Assembly (NCBI GenBank): GCA_015272515.1 | Contig: JACYLN010000018.1 | Span: 1-35,757 of the forward strand | DNA length: 35,757 nt | Reading direction: 5' to 3' | Source: Leptolyngbyaceae cyanobacterium C42_A2020_001 | GTDB lineage: Bacteria > Cyanobacteriota > Cyanobacteriia > Leptolyngbyales > Leptolyngbyaceae | Part shown: piece after piece, positions 6,247 through 16,783 of the stretch | How the letters are laid out: the number at the start of each line of letters is the position of its first letter | Position numbering within the stretch: the first letter of the stretch is position 1 | Position numbers and translations under genes: made by a program | The notes under the pieces: model-generated | The model's input: the letters and a program-made list of their open reading frames with translations, nothing else | Told to the model about the DNA's origin: nothing | Databases searched by the model: none

Positions 6247-6440
6247 GGAATGGATGATTGGAGATTAGGGATTTTAGATTGACATTGGAGATTTTGCATG
6301 AAGCGATCGCTGACGAATCTGTGTTTTATCCTGGCAATCGCTTGTGTGATGTGGCTGTCGTCGCCGCACTTATTCACGAATGCTGCCAACTCCTCCGCCT
6401 CACCCCCAACCTCCAATCGTCAATCTAAAATCCAAAATTC
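6247..6440. repeat. Inverted copies of a dispersed AT-rich repeat, one inside a coding region
   Basis: The gap at 6247-6297 carries GATTGGAGATTAGGGATTTT and AGATTGAC-like text. The complementary version (ACCTCCAATCGTCAATCT, AAAATCCAAAATTC) lies at about 6407-6440 within the next gene, where it is read as PPTSNRQSKIQNS. Related text recurs at about 27071-27180 and 30533-30565. This is a familiar type of dispersed cyanobacterial repeat; here one copy has been absorbed in frame. Confidence 0.6.
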
Positions 6441-7515
6441 CATCGCCTGGCGAGATCTACCTGCAACAGACACATCCAAGTTTGAGAAAGCGATCGCCCC
6501 TCGCAGTTGGCATTTTCCAGATGACTTTGGTGCCCATGAAGATTATCAAACCGAGTGGTGGTACTACACGGGCAACCTGGAAACCGCAGAGGGTAGAGAG
6601 TTTGGCTTCCAGTTAACTTTTTTTCGCCAAGCATTGTCACCGGGAAAACCCGTTTCCGCCTCTCATTGGCGCAGCAACCAAATTTATTCCGCCCACTTCA
6701 CGATTAGCGACATCGCCAGCGATCGCTTCTATCCCTATGAACGCTTCAGTCGCGGCGTGGTGGATTTAGCGGGCGCAGCGGCAAATCCCTATCACGTTTG
6801 GCTGGAAGATTGGTCAGCTAGCGAAATTGAACCGGGAGTAGTACGGCTGCAAGCCCAAACCTCTGATGTGGCGCTCGATCTGATCGTAAACCAGACATTA
6901 CCTCCCGTTTTACAGGGCGATCGCGGTTTGAGCATCAAAGGGGTTGAACCTGGAAACGCCTCGTACTATTACTCCCTGGTGCAACAACCCACCACAGGCA
7001 CGATCACAGTCAAAGGCAAACCTTTCACGGTCAGCGGCGTTACCTGGAAAGACCACGAATATTCCACCAGTTCTTTAAGTCCTGGCACCGTAGGCTGGGA
7101 TTGGTTTTCGCTCCAATTCAACAATGGCTCTGCCCTGATGCTTTACCTGCTACGGCACGAAGACGGCACTCCAGAACGTACCTCCGCTGCCATGTTTGTT
7201 TCACCAACCGGCGAGTTGACTCCCCTCACACCTCAAGACTGGACATTAGAAGTCCTGAACACCTGGAAAAGCCCTCAAAGTCAGGCAACCTATCCGGCAA
7301 AGTGGGTGCTGCAAATCCCCCAGTTGAATCTGGCTGTGCAGGGACAAGCGCTGATGCCCAACCAGGAATTGAACACCTCCACCGCTACTTATTGGGAGGG
7401 AGCCGTTGCCTTTCAGGGAAGCTTACAAGACCAACCCATAAAGGGCAAAGGATATGTAGAACTGACCGGATACGCCGATCGCCTGGATACGATTCTTTCT
7501 GCCAGCGCCCCTTAG
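6298..7515 (+). CDS. AttH/CrtC-like lipocalin-fold exported protein
   Basis: An N-terminal signal sequence (MKRSLTNLCFILAIACVMWL) leads to a mature protein with the hallmark EDYQTEWWYYTGNL and the paired beta-barrel domains of the AttH/carotenoid 1,2-hydratase family (lipocalin-like, COG5621-type). WKDHEYSTSSL and VGWDWFSLQFNNG are typical second-domain motifs. At 405 residues it has the usual length. Its position directly after the ABC ATPase and double-FtsX permease is the classic AttEFGH arrangement, so it is probably the periplasmic or outer-membrane substrate-binding part of that exporter rather than a carotenoid enzyme (inference). Residues about 33-46 come from a dispersed DNA repeat read in frame between the signal peptide and the first domain, probably a tolerated linker insertion. 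Confidence 0.87.
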   Translation: MKRSLTNLCFILAIACVMWLSSPHLFTNAANSSASPPTSNRQSKIQNSIAWRDLPATDTSKFEKAIAPRSWHFPDDFGAHEDYQTEWWYYTGNLETAEGREFGFQLTFFRQALSPGKPVSASHWRSNQIYSAHFTISDIASDRFYPYERFSRGVVDLAGAAANPYHVWLEDWSASEIEPGVVRLQAQTSDVALDLIVNQTLPPVLQGDRGLSIKGVEPGNASYYYSLVQQPTTGTITVKGKPFTVSGVTWKDHEYSTSSLSPGTVGWDWFSLQFNNGSALMLYLLRHEDGTPERTSAAMFVSPTGELTPLTPQDWTLEVLNTWKSPQSQATYPAKWVLQIPQLNLAVQGQALMPNQELNTSTATYWEGAVAFQGSLQDQPIKGKGYVELTGYADRLDTILSASAP

Positions 7516-8652: not shown

Positions 8653-9408
8653 CTAACATTTCTGCACCAGCAACACGGAATGGGAAGGTCGAACAACCTG
8701 ACTCAATCGAGTCAAAAACTTCTTCTTAAACTCTCCGTTCCCTGCTGAAAACTCTCGCCCAAAAAGATTAGCAACCTTCTCCTTCAGCGACATAAATTGA
8801 TAGCTTCTAACTGGGGTGTACCAGATTTTTCTGAATTGTTCAGGTGAGAAATATTGCAGCGGACGGACTTCGCCCCCCCCAACCAACCCACTGGCACGAA
8901 ACTTGTCGAAGTTGTAGACAAAGCCACCGGGTTGCAACTTCCGATAAATTTCGGTAATCAGGTTCTTCCGGCTCTCAACATCTTGAATTTGAGAAATGAC
9001 ACCTGCCATTGAAACCCAGTTAAAACTTTGGTCAGCAAACGGCAATGCCTCACCCTCGTAACTCAAGAAGTTGATAGCTGGATTTAATTTCCTGGCTAAG
9101 TTAATCGTCCCAGGTCTCAAATCTAGCCCGGTCAACTGCTCTGGACACAAACCCAAATCCAGGTACATTCGAGTACTGCGCCCGTTGCCACAGCCTAAAT
9201 CCAAAAGTTTCGCAGTTTCCAGGGAAATGCTACTCAAGCACACTGCTTTTGCTGTGTAATAGAGCAAACTGAGGCGATACGCAATCTCGTATTCACTCTT
9301 TACCGGATTCCAGGTATCTGCCTCATCAGGCTCCAAAACCTCGTAATCGGAGAGCACCTGTTGAGCCACTTGACCAAGCTGATTGCTGACCTGAGTAATA
9401 GATTCCAT
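8653..9408 (-). CDS. Class I SAM-dependent methyltransferase
   Basis: The Rossmann methyltransferase motif I is LLDLGCGNGRSTR (about residues 68-80), followed by the motif II acidic strand LTGLDLRPGTI, a FNWVSMAGVISQIQD motif IV region and LQPGGFVYNFD. The 251 residues fit a Methyltransf_11/25-type enzyme. The substrate cannot be deduced. The gene is convergent with the broken glycosyltransferase and its stop abuts that frame's stop directly (8652/8653). It follows the alpha/beta-hydrolase on the same strand after 90 nt, so the two could be cotranscribed. Confidence 0.85.
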   Translation of the reverse strand: MESITQVSNQLGQVAQQVLSDYEVLEPDEADTWNPVKSEYEIAYRLSLLYYTAKAVCLSSISLETAKLLDLGCGNGRSTRMYLDLGLCPEQLTGLDLRPGTINLARKLNPAINFLSYEGEALPFADQSFNWVSMAGVISQIQDVESRKNLITEIYRKLQPGGFVYNFDKFRASGLVGGGEVRPLQYFSPEQFRKIWYTPVRSYQFMSLKEKVANLFGREFSAGNGEFKKKFLTRLSQVVRPSHSVLLVQKC

Positions 9409-9498
9409 ACTTATCCCTGCGAGTAAGTTCCAGCAGGATTATAAAGTGGCAACCTGGTTCAAGCGGATTAACTAGGACACATCCCACCCGATAAAAAC

Positions 9499-10314
9499 TC
9501 ACTCTGCCAAAAACTGAAGCACCGCAGTAGCAACTTTGTCAGGAATCTGGTTCATCATGCAAATGGTGCCATCAGAAAACTCAACAACCTTTCCATGGGG
9601 GATGGCTTGAGACAGGAAAAAGCGGTCTTTTGCCAGTGCCAGTCCAAGCCGCTCAAATTCTTCCATGTCATCAATGCCCCAGAGAATTAGCGTCGGCTGC
9701 TGAATGGCGCGAAAACGATCTGCCGCATCTATGCAGTAATTGCCCACTGCCCACACTGCATATAATGGATAGCCAAAACATTTCAGATCATCCAACACCC
9801 AGCGATGATTCAACTCCGCCGAGCCAATATAGCGATCGCGCGCATTCCAGCGTTCTAGCAAATGAGAGCCATCCGCTTTGATCACAAATCCTTCTTCAAA
9901 TCGGCGTATCAGATCAGCTTTGCCAGCTTCACCAAACCCTGCAACGTTGCAAAGAATTAGTTTCTTAATTCGGTCTGGATAGGAGACAGCAATTTCTCCA
10001 GAAACGAATGCGCCTGTATGATTTCCAAGCACGTTTGCTTGAGTGATATGCAATTCGTCTAGTAGGGCGATCACAGTCTTTGCATAGTCTGCAACTGAGT
10101 AAAGTCTGGGTGGTTTATCAGAATCTCCAAACCCCATAAAGTCCATGGCAATGACGCAATAGTGTGGAGCCAGCAAGGGCATCAATTCGCGATATTCATC
10201 ACTGCTGCGTGGGTTCATATGTAACAGCAACAGTGCCTCTCCTTCTCCACCAATGCGATAGTGAATCTGTCCATCGGCAGTATCCAGAAAGGCACGTTTA
10301 ATAGGGGCACTCAT
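9499..10314 (-). CDS. Alpha/beta-hydrolase fold protein with non-canonical catalytic site
   Basis: The fold is clear: LLLLHMNPRSSDEY (oxyanion region), VIAMDFMGFGDSDKP, the elbow VLGNHTGAF, and LILWGIDDMEEF (acid strand). The nucleophile elbow, normally G-x-S-x-G, reads G-N-H-T-G with His in the nucleophile position. The C-terminal region that normally supplies the catalytic His reads SDGTICMMNQIP, with none. It may be a subfamily with different chemistry or a non-enzymatic binding role (inference). Its own promoter is visible: TTGCAA (10364-10369), 17 nt, TATAAA (10341-10346 in complement). This argues that it is not simply the tail of the LexA-boxed operon upstream. Confidence 0.85.
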   Translation of the reverse strand: MSAPIKRAFLDTADGQIHYRIGGEGEALLLLHMNPRSSDEYRELMPLLAPHYCVIAMDFMGFGDSDKPPRLYSVADYAKTVIALLDELHITQANVLGNHTGAFVSGEIAVSYPDRIKKLILCNVAGFGEAGKADLIRRFEEGFVIKADGSHLLERWNARDRYIGSAELNHRWVLDDLKCFGYPLYAVWAVGNYCIDAADRFRAIQQPTLILWGIDDMEEFERLGLALAKDRFFLSQAIPHGKVVEFSDGTICMMNQIPDKVATAVLQFLAE

Positions 10315-10340
10315 GGGGCTATCTCATTTCGATATGACCC

Positions 10341-10369
10341 TTTATAAAGTAGCCACCAAAATCTTGCAA
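10341..10369 (-). promoter_or_regulatory. Sigma70-type promoter for the alpha/beta-hydrolase gene
   Basis: On the minus strand TTGCAA (complement of 10364-10369) is separated by exactly 17 nt from TATAAA (complement of 10341-10346). It ends 27 nt before the ATG at 10314. The hexamers and spacing agree well with the vegetative consensus. Confidence 0.6.
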
Positions 10370-10390
10370 CCGCATCCTCCACCATTGCAA

Positions 10391-11446
10391 TTAATTGTGA
10401 CTGCCGCGAATAATGGCATCGGCGATCGCGCTTGATTGAGTACTTTTATCTTCGAGCGATCGCGCATCAGCAACCCGTTGATCTGCTTTTTGCGGAGGTT
10501 GAGTTTTGGCAATGCCACCATTTTGTTGCTCGTAAGACTCCAACGCCTTAGAAATCATGGCCATGCGGCGATCCTGATCGCGCCGAATACTTTCCTCCTT
10601 ACTAATGTCGTCATAAGCTCGCAGTCCGGGGGCATCCCAGCCACCTTTATCACCATCCCAAAATGCCCACACCCGCGCTTCCAAAATTGCCTCGTCACCA
10701 GCCAATCCCTTTTCTTTTTTTGCCTGCGCCAGTCGTTCAATGTAGCCACCCTCTTCCGTCACCGCTAAGGGAGCCTGATTAATCAAGTCAATTCCATTGA
10801 TTTCTTCCGCCACAGTTAGCGGTGCAACTCCGTGTTTTTCAGCTTTCGGCAGCATCACTGATTCATAAATGCGCTTGATCTTGGCAAGCTGACGGCGATC
10901 GCTCTCATCCGGCGACAAATTTTCCTCATTACCAAACTGATAAGAAAACGTACCCCGGTTCCACACACCATTTCCCGGATCAACGTGCCCGTGGTAGTTT
11001 TGAGTTTTCCCACCATCTGCCGTGCGTGTGCCTTCCGCCGCTCCTACGGTACGGGCAACCAGCGATTCCGACCCTCCTGCAAACATATCACCTTGAGCAG
11101 AACTAGTTTTGGTTGAATCAATCGTTGGAGTCTGTGGTGGCTCAGATTGGGCAGGGGCAGCAGCGGCGATCGCGGCACTATTTTGAGTAGTGGGCATGTC
11201 CTTTTCTGAGCGCTTAGATGGAGGTTCAAAACTAATCGCACCGGATGCATCCGCCCAGGGATTGCCAGCCTTACCCGCTTCAACAGGCATGTCGGTTTGG
11301 GCAACATCTGCCGATGTTTCGCCTAGAACGGGGTTAGACTCCGCCTCAAAAGATTCATTCTCAAAAGATTCATTCGCGTTCGCCTGAAGCGGCGCGACAA
11401 CTGTTGCAAGCAGGCTGATTGCAACTGGGAAGACTGAATTTTTCAT
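10391..11446 (-). CDS. Exported protein of unknown function, third gene of LexA-boxed operon
   Basis: I do not recognise a named family. A signal peptide (MKNSVFPVAISLLATVVAPL, cleavage near QANA) is followed by about 110 residues of low-complexity Ser/Pro/Glu-rich linker. A folded C-terminal region starts around HVDPGNGVWNRGTFSYQFG, continues through VAPLTVAEEINGIDLINQ and ARVWAFWDGDKGGWDAPGL, and ends in a helical, charged tail. The strongly conserved-looking Gly/Trp/Asp motifs suggest an enzyme or ligand-binding domain outside the cytoplasm (inference). ATG at 11446 is preferred because it places the signal peptide at the N-terminus. A GTG at 11452 abuts the stop of the preceding gene, so translation is probably coupled. 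Confidence 0.75.
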   Translation of the reverse strand: MKNSVFPVAISLLATVVAPLQANANESFENESFEAESNPVLGETSADVAQTDMPVEAGKAGNPWADASGAISFEPPSKRSEKDMPTTQNSAAIAAAAPAQSEPPQTPTIDSTKTSSAQGDMFAGGSESLVARTVGAAEGTRTADGGKTQNYHGHVDPGNGVWNRGTFSYQFGNEENLSPDESDRRQLAKIKRIYESVMLPKAEKHGVAPLTVAEEINGIDLINQAPLAVTEEGGYIERLAQAKKEKGLAGDEAILEARVWAFWDGDKGGWDAPGLRAYDDISKEESIRRDQDRRMAMISKALESYEQQNGGIAKTQPPQKADQRVADARSLEDKSTQSSAIADAIIRGSHN

Positions 11447-12397: not shown

Positions 12398-12844
12398 TCA
12401 TCGCAATCGTTCCTCTTGAATCAGAGTACGTTGAAACAGTTGATGGTTCTTGAACCAGTGCCAGGTGCGGGCGCGGTAGTTATTGCAAGGGCTGATTTGA
12501 ATCATTTCGTACAGGTAGAAGTCAGCGACAGTTTTGTAGCTGAATTTAAGAATCAACGTTGCCCCATCCGCTTCCCAGGCTTCGCCTTGAATGCGATCTG
12601 TATCAAACCAGAGTTTTTGATCCTGGTAGATGGCTGGAAAACGGTGCTCTTCGCGTTTGCCATCTGCCCACTTGTAGCGGTTGATTTGGTAATAGTCGTA
12701 ACTGCCATCTGTGGGAAATTGGCATGTGAGATGGGAGGTATGTTTATCGATCATGCGCCCTTCTAGATCTAGCACTGAGTAAGTTCCTACCCAATCTCCT
12801 TCATGGCGGGCTAGCACGGGCATCGCGTCACGAATGCTGGACAT
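12398..12844 (-). CDS. Lipocalin-like conserved hypothetical protein
   Basis: The protein begins SSIRDAMPVLARHEGDWVG and continues with alternating strands: GTYSVLDLEGRMIDKHTSHL, DYYQINRYKWADG, KLWFDTDRIQGEAWEADGAT and QISPCNNYRARTWHWFKN. This is the look of a calycin/lipocalin-type beta-barrel as in DUF3598-like proteins, which bind small hydrophobic ligands. The assignment is by resemblance only. ATG at 12844 is chosen over the TTG at 12856. It follows the Crp-family regulator gene after about 36 nt on the same strand, so the two are probably an operon and the regulator may control it (inference). Confidence 0.7.
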   Translation of the reverse strand: MSSIRDAMPVLARHEGDWVGTYSVLDLEGRMIDKHTSHLTCQFPTDGSYDYYQINRYKWADGKREEHRFPAIYQDQKLWFDTDRIQGEAWEADGATLILKFSYKTVADFYLYEMIQISPCNNYRARTWHWFKNHQLFQRTLIQEERLR

Positions 12845-12880
12845 GGCAGTTCGCAAAAATGGGGCGATCGCATTCTCGCA

Positions 12881-14194: not shown

Positions 14195-15607
14195 TTACAA
14201 ATTCCACCAGGGATCAGCGCTCTCATTGGTTTTCACTAAGTAAGCTTTTTGTCGTAAGAAACGCTTGATGGAGGCACCGCCCATCCGAGAACCTCCCAAG
14301 CCAGAAAACTTGAAGGAATTTTTTTCACCCTCGTAAATCAGCGCTGTGAGGGCTGCATCATTAATGCTAATGGCTCCTGCCTGAATGGCATCTGCTATGG
14401 GTAAGGCTTCTGCATCAGTGTGTGCAAATACAGCGGCACTGAGTCCATAAGCAGTATCGTTGGCAAGGTCGATCGCATCTTTCACGGTTGCAAACGGCAT
14501 GATTGGCATGATTGGCCCGAAGGTTTCTTCTGTCATCACTTTCATTGAATGATTAACCTGGGTCAACACGGTGGGGCGACACCACAAACCCCCACTTAAA
14601 TGTTCAATCGTTCCGCCACAGTAGGCGATCGCGCCTTTTTGGTAAGCGTCTTCCAGATGGTCGGCAATGATCGCAGCTTGCCTCTCGGCAATGATCGGTC
14701 CAATTGCCCCATCGTTCAAACCGGGATAGGCAAGATTTAACGCTTGAGCTTTAGCAAGGAGTCGATCTACGAACGTTTCAAAAATCGATTCAGCCACATA
14801 GATACGCTCAATTGAAAGACAAGATTGTCCTGCATTCACCACCGATCCCCACAAAATTGCAGATGTTGCCAAATCGAGATTGGCGGATTCCAACACCACT
14901 GCTGGATCTTTTCCACCCAGTTCTAAAAAGGCAGGAATAAAACGTTTTGTAGCAACTTCTGCAACTTTGCGGCCAGTGGCGACACTGCCAGTAAAGCAGA
15001 TTAAATCAACCTGTTCTACCACCGCAGTCCCAGTTTCTCCGGCTCCAGTGATGTACTGCAAAATTGCCTGCAAATCGGGAATCGCGGTGATAGTTTTGAG
15101 CAAGGGCTGCACAAATCGGGGTGCAATTTCACTGGGTTTGACAATCGCCGCACACCCCGCCAGCAATGCTGGGATCAGATCAATCGTAGAAAGTAGCAGG
15201 GGAAAGTTCCACGGGCTGATAATGCCAACTAACGGGTAGGGAACGGCTGTTTGTTGTAGCTGAATGAATGGAATAACAGTATTTTTTTGGAATGTTTTCA
15301 GTAAGTCTGGAGCAAGGCGACACCAGCGATCGATATTATTCAAAAATGAGTTTAGTTCTAATTCTGAAACTGATAAGCGACCCGTATCTATCGTTAGTGC
15401 ATTGATAAGTTCGGAAGAATTTGACGTGATCTGTTGCTTCCATTGTTGAAGTATTGCAATTCGATGTTCCAAACCCATTGCTTGCCAATGCCCCTGTGAT
15501 TTACGAAGGCGATCGCACACCTGCTTCAACTCTTCTCTGGATGGAGGCGTAATCCAATCATCGATTTCACCAGTGCGGGGATTGCGAATGCCAATGGGAT
15601 GATTCAT
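14195..15607 (-). CDS. NAD(P)-dependent aldehyde dehydrogenase
   Basis: The enzyme oxidises an aldehyde to the acid. The 470 residues contain the Rossmann loop FTGSVATGRKVAE, the catalytic Glu in FLELGGKDPAVV, the catalytic Cys263 in NAGQSCLSIERIYV, and the late motif EETFGPIMPIMPF. PLVGIISPWNFPLLL is the typical N-terminal coenzyme-binding strand. The length is at the short end of the ALDH superfamily. The substrate is not determined; cyanobacterial relatives are implicated in fatty aldehyde or carotenoid-derived aldehyde oxidation (family knowledge, not specific to this gene). The gap to the nitrilase-like gene upstream holds tandem repeats. Confidence 0.92.
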   Translation of the reverse strand: MNHPIGIRNPRTGEIDDWITPPSREELKQVCDRLRKSQGHWQAMGLEHRIAILQQWKQQITSNSSELINALTIDTGRLSVSELELNSFLNNIDRWCRLAPDLLKTFQKNTVIPFIQLQQTAVPYPLVGIISPWNFPLLLSTIDLIPALLAGCAAIVKPSEIAPRFVQPLLKTITAIPDLQAILQYITGAGETGTAVVEQVDLICFTGSVATGRKVAEVATKRFIPAFLELGGKDPAVVLESANLDLATSAILWGSVVNAGQSCLSIERIYVAESIFETFVDRLLAKAQALNLAYPGLNDGAIGPIIAERQAAIIADHLEDAYQKGAIAYCGGTIEHLSGGLWCRPTVLTQVNHSMKVMTEETFGPIMPIMPFATVKDAIDLANDTAYGLSAAVFAHTDAEALPIADAIQAGAISINDAALTALIYEGEKNSFKFSGLGGSRMGGASIKRFLRQKAYLVKTNESADPWWNL

Positions 15608-15742: not shown

Positions 15743-16783
15743 TTAAATCATGCCTAAATCTGATAAGCGCTGAATTGCAGTTTGCTGAGTTTGGATGAAG
15801 TGCGATCGCTCAATGTTGCCAGTTTGCATGGTGTTTGATGGGTAAATGCTGTGTTTGGTGTAGCTGTCGGCGTACATTTCCAGGCGTTGGCGTGCCAGAA
15901 GGTTGGTCAATCCGGGGCGACGACGGTAACGGCGCAATGCTGCCAGGTCAATTTCGGCAAAGGCTGCCATGCTTTCTCCGGTTGCGGTTTCTGCCAATAC
16001 CAGCCCACGATAATCAATGATTTTGGAACCCCCATCAACTGAACCAGGGGGAATGGCGCTGTTGAGCAGCCCGCCCGTGTTTGCTGAAATTACGTATGCC
16101 AGATTTTCTACAGCACGGGAGATCTTGGCAGCTTCTTTGGGCGATCGCTCCTTACCATACACCTCCGAAGTGGGATGGAGAAACACTTCAGCACCCCGCA
16201 ACGCTAAACAGCGCGCCAGTTCAGGAAATAGAATTTCATCTGACGCGATCGCGGCTAAATTGCCGATCTCCGTTTTGGCAACGGGAAACACCCCCTCCAA
16301 TCCGTAGTGCTCCAGGTATTGCTCCCAAACATCGTGGGGAGTGGGCGCAAACATAGAATTTAGCCGACGATAGCGCAACACAACATTCCCAGAAGGGGCA
16401 ATCACAAAGCAGGTTTGGAAATACAAACCAGGGAAATGTAGGTCGAGTTCGTAGGCGTTTCCAGCCAGAAAAATTGCGTGTTTCTGGGCAATTTGTCCCA
16501 GGGCTTCGTATTCGGGTCCGGCAATTTCAATGCAGGCTTTGTCTGCCCATGCAGCGATCGACTCTCCCATAGGGAAACCTGTTAAAAAATATTCAGGTAG
16601 AACCACCAGCCGACAATCTGCTCCAATAAAGGCGAGGCTGGCAGCAATTTGAGGATTAAGGCGAGTGATTGCTTGCCGAATTAGCGCGGTTGCTTCGCGG
16701 CGATCGCGTGCCTGGTTCACAGCATGGCAACTTGTTTGCAGGGCCAGGGCCCGGTAAAACTCTAAAAAAGGAGTGGCTTCCAT
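15743..16783 (-). CDS. Nitrilase-superfamily (carbon-nitrogen hydrolase) protein lacking catalytic Cys and Lys
   Basis: The CN-hydrolase fold is clear. The catalytic Glu64 is in RLVVLPEYFLTGFP. RYRRLNSMFAPTPHDVW corresponds to the Lys motif, with Arg140 where the catalytic Lys should be. GNLAAIASDEILFPELAR corresponds to the Cys motif, with Ser181 where the nucleophilic Cys should be. AEVFLHPTSE and ENLAYVISANTG are typical later strands. At 346 residues it is longer than most; the last 40 residues are an extra tail. With Cys and Lys replaced, classical amide or nitrile hydrolysis is doubtful. It may be a subfamily with altered chemistry or a binding role (inference). It is probably cotranscribed with the SGNH gene 27 nt upstream. 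Confidence 0.83.
   Translation of the reverse strand: MEATPFLEFYRALALQTSCHAVNQARDRREATALIRQAITRLNPQIAASLAFIGADCRLVVLPEYFLTGFPMGESIAAWADKACIEIAGPEYEALGQIAQKHAIFLAGNAYELDLHFPGLYFQTCFVIAPSGNVVLRYRRLNSMFAPTPHDVWEQYLEHYGLEGVFPVAKTEIGNLAAIASDEILFPELARCLALRGAEVFLHPTSEVYGKERSPKEAAKISRAVENLAYVISANTGGLLNSAIPPGSVDGGSKIIDYRGLVLAETATGESMAAFAEIDLAALRRYRRRPGLTNLLARQRLEMYADSYTKHSIYPSNTMQTGNIERSHFIQTQQTAIQRLSDLGMI

Follow-up and report, generated by a model that had tools for sequence, protein, structure and literature searches.

How an alpha/beta-hydrolase-fold protein might work, or whether it works at all, when a histidine takes the place of its nucleophile and the usual C-terminal histidine is missing is the question raised by a gene of Leptolyngbyaceae cyanobacterium C42_A2020_001. 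The gene lies in the 35,757-nt stretch of contig JACYLN010000018.1 (assembly GCA_015272515.1) that we have analysed, referred to here as the window, where it occupies positions 9499..10314 of the minus strand and encodes a protein of 271 amino acids (stop codon included in the coordinates). The ORF runs from an ATG at 10314 to a stop codon at 9501-9499 without any internal stop, and the plus strand over 9499-10314 is interrupted by stops and holds no ORF spanning the same stretch. The first-pass annotation had credited the gene with a good promoter of its own, and this claim was not confirmed, as the promoter scan of positions 9300-10600 listed no minus-strand sigma-70 site. By eye, a TTGCAA-17-TATAAA sequence that the scan rule on the last T leaves out can be found at 10369-10341, ending 26 bases before the start codon with a 9/12 match; sites of this grade are expected by chance in the region (shuffle mean of 1.7, both strands), and this one is no better than chance.

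The protein is a member of the alpha/beta-hydrolase superfamily, as given by the Pfam Abhydrolase_1 domain (5e-20, 72.6 bits, with a cut-off of 25.8) and by the structural match of its AlphaFold2 model to 3om8_B. The model, built from 30 alignment rows, has a mean pLDDT of 90.6 and a pTM of 0.90, and this best match has a Z of 29.3 and an rmsd of 2.4 over 252 residues, i.e., nearly the whole chain. Below the superfamily level, none of the best 25 of the 29 matched NCBIfam families reached its cut-off: the haloalkane dehalogenase equivalogs stayed below theirs (for instance PRK03592, 73.3 of 241 bits), and so did the RutD-type aminoacrylate hydrolase family TIGR03611 (42.3 versus 238.5 bits). 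The Pfam Ndr domain of NDRG, a dead hydrolase homologue, scored 22.5 bits over residues 72-126 only, with a cut-off of 23.3. The Asp nucleophile of haloalkane dehalogenases and epoxide hydrolases is not present, the elbow residue being H99. An identity as canonical hydrolase, dehalogenase or epoxide hydrolase was thus rejected, since the defining residues are missing and no NCBIfam cut-off was reached among these 25 of 29 families. Two sequence comparisons with the PDB (310 and 191 distinct sequences matched) showed no HTG elbow in the five alignments examined each time among the best 60, and none of the structure matches among the best 50 PDB entries and the best 50 Foldseek rows was named as a His-elbow kind.

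The active-site region was examined by translation, alignment and the model. Residues 95-103 read VLGNHTGAF, and the elbow G97-N-H99-T-G101 (10012..10026, minus strand) places H99 at the nucleophile position. In the model, strand 5 covers residues 93-98 and the next helix residues 100-111, and residue 99, which stands between them, is thus located on the elbow. The acid strand, LILWGIDDM, carries D215 and D216; the alignment points to D216 (9667..9669, minus strand), which follows the strand 208-213 of the model, as the strand-7 acid and the proposed partner of H99. Residues 246-256 read FSDGTICMMNQ, and the canonical strand-8 His column, with His in 7 of 8 outgroup proteins, aligns with I251, so that the loop DGTICMMNQ (residues 248-256; 9547..9573, minus strand) corresponds in the alignment to the lost catalytic-His site. 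The oxyanion-strand motif LLH-M-NPRSS (residues 30-38; 10201..10227, minus strand) has HM instead of the usual HG, a change to HM or HQ that is found in 28 of the 34 aligned His-bearing members of the family (M or Q at residue 33). Among the features of a canonical triad hydrolase, the window protein thus shows the acid after strand 7, but neither a Ser, Cys or Asp at the elbow nor a strand-8 His. These results bear out what the first-pass annotation had read from the letters, namely a G-N-H-T-G elbow with His at the nucleophile position, a C-terminal site reading GTICMMNQ without His, and a normal acid strand.

The relatives of the protein were then surveyed in its own genome, in its order and phylum, and outside the cyanobacteria. 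In its own genome, 13 places match the window protein at E <= 1e-5, and seven of the other twelve were examined. The elbow residue is Ser or Asp in six of them, and the remaining one (L006, C70:114346-114681) reads SSLTG near the elbow in an ambiguous alignment and has no strand-8 His, which possibly makes it a second odd active site. Within the order, 5 of 42 genomes, own genome included, carry a copy at 79-100% identity, and a His-elbow gene was found in 11 of the 386 genomes of the phylum sample. The search of the genome collection yielded 18 cyanobacterial and two Flavobacteriaceae loci. Of the 34 loci considered, 32 entered the neighbourhood comparison, which did not include the two Flavobacteriaceae, and removal of four repeat loci (L051, L061, L062, and L063) left 28 cyanobacterial loci, window included. 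All 28 have the His elbow, in one case as GHHFG, and their identity to the window protein falls at two levels, 68-82% (type A) and 58-62% (type B).

The tblastn search of plasmids (E <= 1e-20) gave 11 records with 29-34% identity to the window protein. We have fetched 7 of these 11, and then 3 further relatives from the 10 records of a second search; a third search (8 records) added none. The elbow reads GHHTG, GSHTG or GTHTG in all of the first seven, and GTHTG, GMHTG and GHDQG in the three later ones, the last coming from a Mycobacterium plasmid and being used as outgroup. The His elbow is therefore present in 9 of the 10 fetched plasmid relatives, whose His-bearing sources are Streptomyces, Rhodococcus, Shinella, Novosphingobium (2), Variovorax, Azospirillum, Comamonas, and Rhizobium. 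A local expansion is seen on the Novosphingobium resinovorum plasmid pSA1, with nine family matches (L068, L071-L078): eight have GxHTG and the ninth is a two-domain ORF with one domain reading ATHTS. Where the plasmid records are annotated, they name family members only 'alpha/beta hydrolase'. The two Flavobacteriaceae members read GHHGG and, because of these two and of the cyanobacterial GHHFG, the elbow Thr is not strict. Outside cyanobacteria, sampling covered the plasmids and a set of 247 genomes centred on a Maribacter genome, the sole match in that set being this central genome. The first-pass annotation had pointed to the HTG elbow as the mark by which to trace homologues, and relatives with a His elbow do exist in cyanobacteria, plasmids, and Flavobacteriaceae.

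The alignment and the tree comprise 49 proteins chosen by hand, including 34 family members with His at residue 99 and 8 outgroup proteins; for pSA1 and two others, the rows consist of the locally matched stretch, which is short in some cases. All His-bearing members but P_L093 have an acid at residue 216 (D or E, 33 of 34), and T100 is kept in 31 of 34. At column 251 none of the 29 readable His-bearing members has His (I in 20, V in 3, L in 2, A in 2, N in 1, R in 1), the other 5 of the 34 being gaps. Histidines do occur nearby: L013 and L015 carry one at residue 256, L092 has one some four residues ahead of the strand-8 site, and most cyanobacterial members have one at residue 240, ahead of strand 8. 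The tree splits the family from the eight outgroup proteins with a support of 100/100; this outgroup, in which L006 is itself odd, is too small to settle a single origin with respect to all hydrolase families. In ten pairs of His-bearing copies from cyanobacteria, dN/dS ranges from 0.042 to 0.136, so these copies are under strong purifying selection, dS being saturated between the window protein and two relatives.

Seven family members have no His at residue 99 (L031, L041, L047, L052, P_L076, P_L081, and P_L082). The first four are cyanobacterial tandem copies (L031:8886-9698, L041:7663-8475, L047:8212-9018, and L052:8428-9234), with GHLTG, GSLTG or GSVTG at the elbow and G or A at residue 216, i.e., the elbow His and D216 are both missing in 4 of 4, and a Glu one or two residues earlier remains. 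They adjoin a His-bearing copy, with a BKACE gene between the two in two cases; Chlorogloeopsis fritschii PCC 6912 is among the species with such a tandem pair. On the plasmids, P_L076, a domain that shares its two-domain ORF with one reading ATHTS, lacks the elbow His and keeps D216. At the acid, P_L081 and P_L082 (GSATG) show a ragged local-match end and a gap, respectively, and the clear His-less rows for reading the acid are the four cyanobacterial copies and P_L076. Joint loss of H99 and D216 amounts to 2 independent events on the starred branches and 3 in all, too few for significance in a sign test; a plain Fisher test gives 1e-5, with kinship ignored and one gap row counted as acid lost.

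The neighbourhood of the gene was compared over the 28 cyanobacterial loci. Ten neighbour clusters were identified by matching a single representative of each to Pfam and NCBIfam, and all counts are lower bounds, since some loci end at contig edges. The window has only three genes of the shared set, all on the minus strand: a DUF3598_N protein (12398..12856; linked in at least 21 of 28 loci), an aldehyde dehydrogenase (14195..15607; at least 16 of 28), and a carbon-nitrogen-hydrolase family protein (15743..16783; at least 13 of 28) with Ser at the expected Cys site. The other linked genes encode an allantoinase-like amidohydrolase and a quinone-oxidoreductase-type dehydrogenase (at least 18 loci each), a member of an Asp/Arg-hydroxylase family (16), a RidA-like protein (15), a SnoaL_2 protein (14), a histidyl-tRNA-synthetase-like protein named by eye (13), a DUF4437 cupin (6), and BKACE (5). 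In the order, all 5 genomes with the His-elbow gene have DUF3598_N, as do 6 of the 37 that lack the gene. The shared neighbourhood can also occur where the His-elbow gene is missing, and L104 and L105 have it nearly complete.

Some of these neighbours are unusual in their own right. The carbon-nitrogen-hydrolase cluster reads AS[DE]E in all 15 rows, or 13 after removal of duplicates, at what we take to be the position of the catalytic-Cys motif of such hydrolases, which makes it a second case of a swapped nucleophile. The RidA-like cluster (e.g., L052:4160-4609) reads PTWTG in all 17 rows (two duplicates included) where the catalytic Arg of RidA enzymes presumably stands, and this neighbour may thus not be an imine deaminase. 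The histidyl-tRNA-synthetase-like gene ends about 19-23 bases before the His-elbow gene in L032, L036, L046, L055, L057, and L058. A gene with a CrtC/Lipocalin_9 domain also lies nearby in the window (6298-7515, plus strand).

Among the 386 genomes, the allantoinase-like gene was found in 10 of the 11 that carry the His-elbow gene and in 7 of the 375 that do not (Fisher 1.2e-14, kinship ignored). The co-occurrence holds where the two genes are unlinked, as in the window genome, whose allantoinase-like gene is located on another contig, beside an Asp/Arg-hydroxylase homologue. One of the ten (G083:C1:1443293-1444087) has an allantoinase-like gene with three in-frame stops and keeps its His-elbow gene. 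Over the loci L102-L108 and L055-L059, a DUF4437-type cupin was found beside the allantoinase-like gene in all 7 genomes without the His-elbow gene; in the same set of 17 amidohydrolase genomes, the cupin is at the locus in 4 of 4 type B versus 0 of 6 type A genomes (p 8e-5 across the groups, kinship ignored). At least two kinds of cupin are involved, with a similarity of about 30-37%; a genome search with one kind listed 12 of 386 genomes and 0 of the 6 type A genomes, the other kind being unlisted in that search. Both the amidohydrolase and the His-elbow gene are missing from three of these twelve genomes (G169, G284, and G376), and L044, a type-A-like locus outside the 17-genome set, does have a cupin. 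The distribution gives a hint, and only a hint, that the type A His-elbow protein and the cupin may substitute for each other. Outside cyanobacteria, the Variovorax and Comamonas relatives are near acyl-CoA dehydrogenase, amidohydrolase, and adenylate-forming or AMP-binding genes, that of Shinella is near an aldehyde dehydrogenase and a gene of the aspartate/glutamate-racemase family, and those of Streptomyces and Rhodococcus lie among transposases, with one oxidoreductase adjoining.

The reading that we favour, with a probability of about 0.52, is that the family is enzymatically active and that its catalytic base would now stand on the nucleophile elbow instead of the strand-8 loop, as part of a putative H99-D216 acid-base dyad. 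H99 on the elbow would hydrogen-bond directly to D216, and the spacing between nucleophile and acid in canonical enzymes would permit such direct contact. D216 would have been kept despite the lost strand-8 His because H99 would be the new partner of the acid. With the base relocated in this way, H99 would serve as general base and acid, and no covalent acyl-serine would be formed. The target could, more speculatively, be a carbonyl or enol-type intermediate, undergoing C-C cleavage, decarboxylation, tautomerisation or water addition, and the protein could have a role in a small-molecule pathway that also uses the allantoinase-like amidohydrolase.

The main rival of an active H99-D216 dyad is a dead hydrolase fold kept for binding or regulation. 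The canonical Ser and the strand-8 His are both missing, as would suit such a pseudo-enzyme, and the His-less copies that stand beside His-bearing ones are also under purifying selection (dN/dS 0.145 in two pairs); however, the same His together with the same acid in several phyla is not expected of a dead site, and the gene co-occurs with metabolic enzymes, which makes this explanation rather unlikely for the His-bearing members. The first-pass annotation had left the choice between unrecognised chemistry and a pseudo-enzyme, and the alternative now divides: the conservation of H99 and of the strand-7 acid across several phyla and the purifying selection in cyanobacteria favour unrecognised chemistry, and thus a putative activity, for the His-bearing proteins, whereas the tandem His-less copies of four relatives are, judging from their residues, the likely pseudo-enzymes, possibly as partners of the His-bearing copies. 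Alternatively, H99 could be the nucleophile itself, oriented by D216, and become covalently acylated or phosphorylated during the reaction. The elbow is the nucleophile seat of the fold and the His is conserved there, but the second step would lack a strand-8 His for the activation of water, and section 2.7 of a 2024 superfamily classification gives Ser, Asp or Cys, or else no nucleophile, for this position (PMC11878206), so that a nucleophilic H99 appears improbable.

The remaining rivals turn on the other conserved residues. Besides H99, the near-invariant Ser and His of the family are S65 (34 of 34 His-bearing members) and H32 (32 of 34). The same residues occur in the outgroup, Ser at the first position in 5 of 8 proteins and His at the second in all 8. 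H151 is found in 27 of 34 His-bearing members. H32 and H151 could suggest that H99 holds a divalent metal together with H32, D216 or H151, yet H32 sits at the general HG-motif position, and H151, at the start of helix 150-163, is kept in 7 of 7 His-less members; a metal site is thus very improbable. The invariance of S65 would likewise fit an ordinary serine hydrolase whose triad had been missed through a shifted alignment, but S65 belongs to a DxxGxGxS stretch that outgroup proteins have besides their own triad, and the complete lack of His at column 251 in the readable rows also speaks against it, leaving this explanation a still slimmer chance. A working triad of another Ser and His, which according to the first-pass annotation would overturn its reading, did not emerge from conservation. 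As to a sequencing error or a recent decay in the window genome alone, orthologues at 68-82% identity share the elbow motif (one as GHHFG), the ORF is uninterrupted, and dN/dS between relatives is far below 1; the relatives with the same motif rule this explanation out for practical purposes.

Taken on sequence grounds, the His-elbow family without a strand-8 His appears to be real and to have a previously undescribed active-site layout, and it does not look like a broken gene. Our literature search, mainly of titles and abstract openings of non-subscription papers, retrieved no description of a His elbow, and searches for GXHXG with hydrolase and for DUF4437 gave no match. The 2024 classification states that the His on the loop after strand 8 is totally conserved (PMC11878206), and a study of 40 families likewise locates the base after strand 8 (PMC7034887). 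A branch spanning several phyla in which the His stands on the elbow and is missing after strand 8 would be an exception to this rule. The family also offers a compact putative His-Asp site for study and engineering, and the gene marks an uncharacterised cyanobacterial pathway around the allantoinase-like enzyme.

Among known systems, the canonical Ser/Cys/Asp-His-Asp hydrolases, such as 3om8 and the enol-lactonase 2xua, resemble the window protein in the whole fold (Z of 29.3 and 29.0), in the strand-7 acid, and in the position of the elbow in the model; the window protein differs from them by its elbow His, by the lack of a strand-8 His, and by the change of the oxyanion HG to HM (HQ in many relatives). 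CGI-58 is described as a hydrolase fold without the catalytic Ser and with an active site that has yet to be located (PMC11878206); both CGI-58 and NDRG lack the usual nucleophile, like the window protein, and no His elbow is described for either in the sources consulted. The hydroxynitrile lyases AtHNL and HbHNL perform non-hydrolytic general-base chemistry through the triad His on the same fold (PMC3444685). Both have a complete Ser-His-Asp triad, unlike the window protein. Tomato MKS1, a methylketone synthase and beta-keto acid decarboxylase, is presented in PMC10548524 as lacking the canonical triad and using one His as base. By this description, MKS1 is like the window protein in that the canonical triad is missing. 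The base His of MKS1 is located on strand 8. In HOD (1-H-3-hydroxy-4-oxoquinaldine 2,4-dioxygenase), PMC10548524 describes a His-Asp general base and a dispensable Ser. The HOD base is H251, on the strand-8 loop, and its elbow residue is Ser or in some cases Ala; the window protein has no HOD-type base His on that loop and carries its candidate His on the elbow, and is thus not a HOD member. The proposed working is nevertheless similar, with a His-Asp dyad as base and a non-essential nucleophile, and by this analogy a HOD-type working is possible for the window protein.
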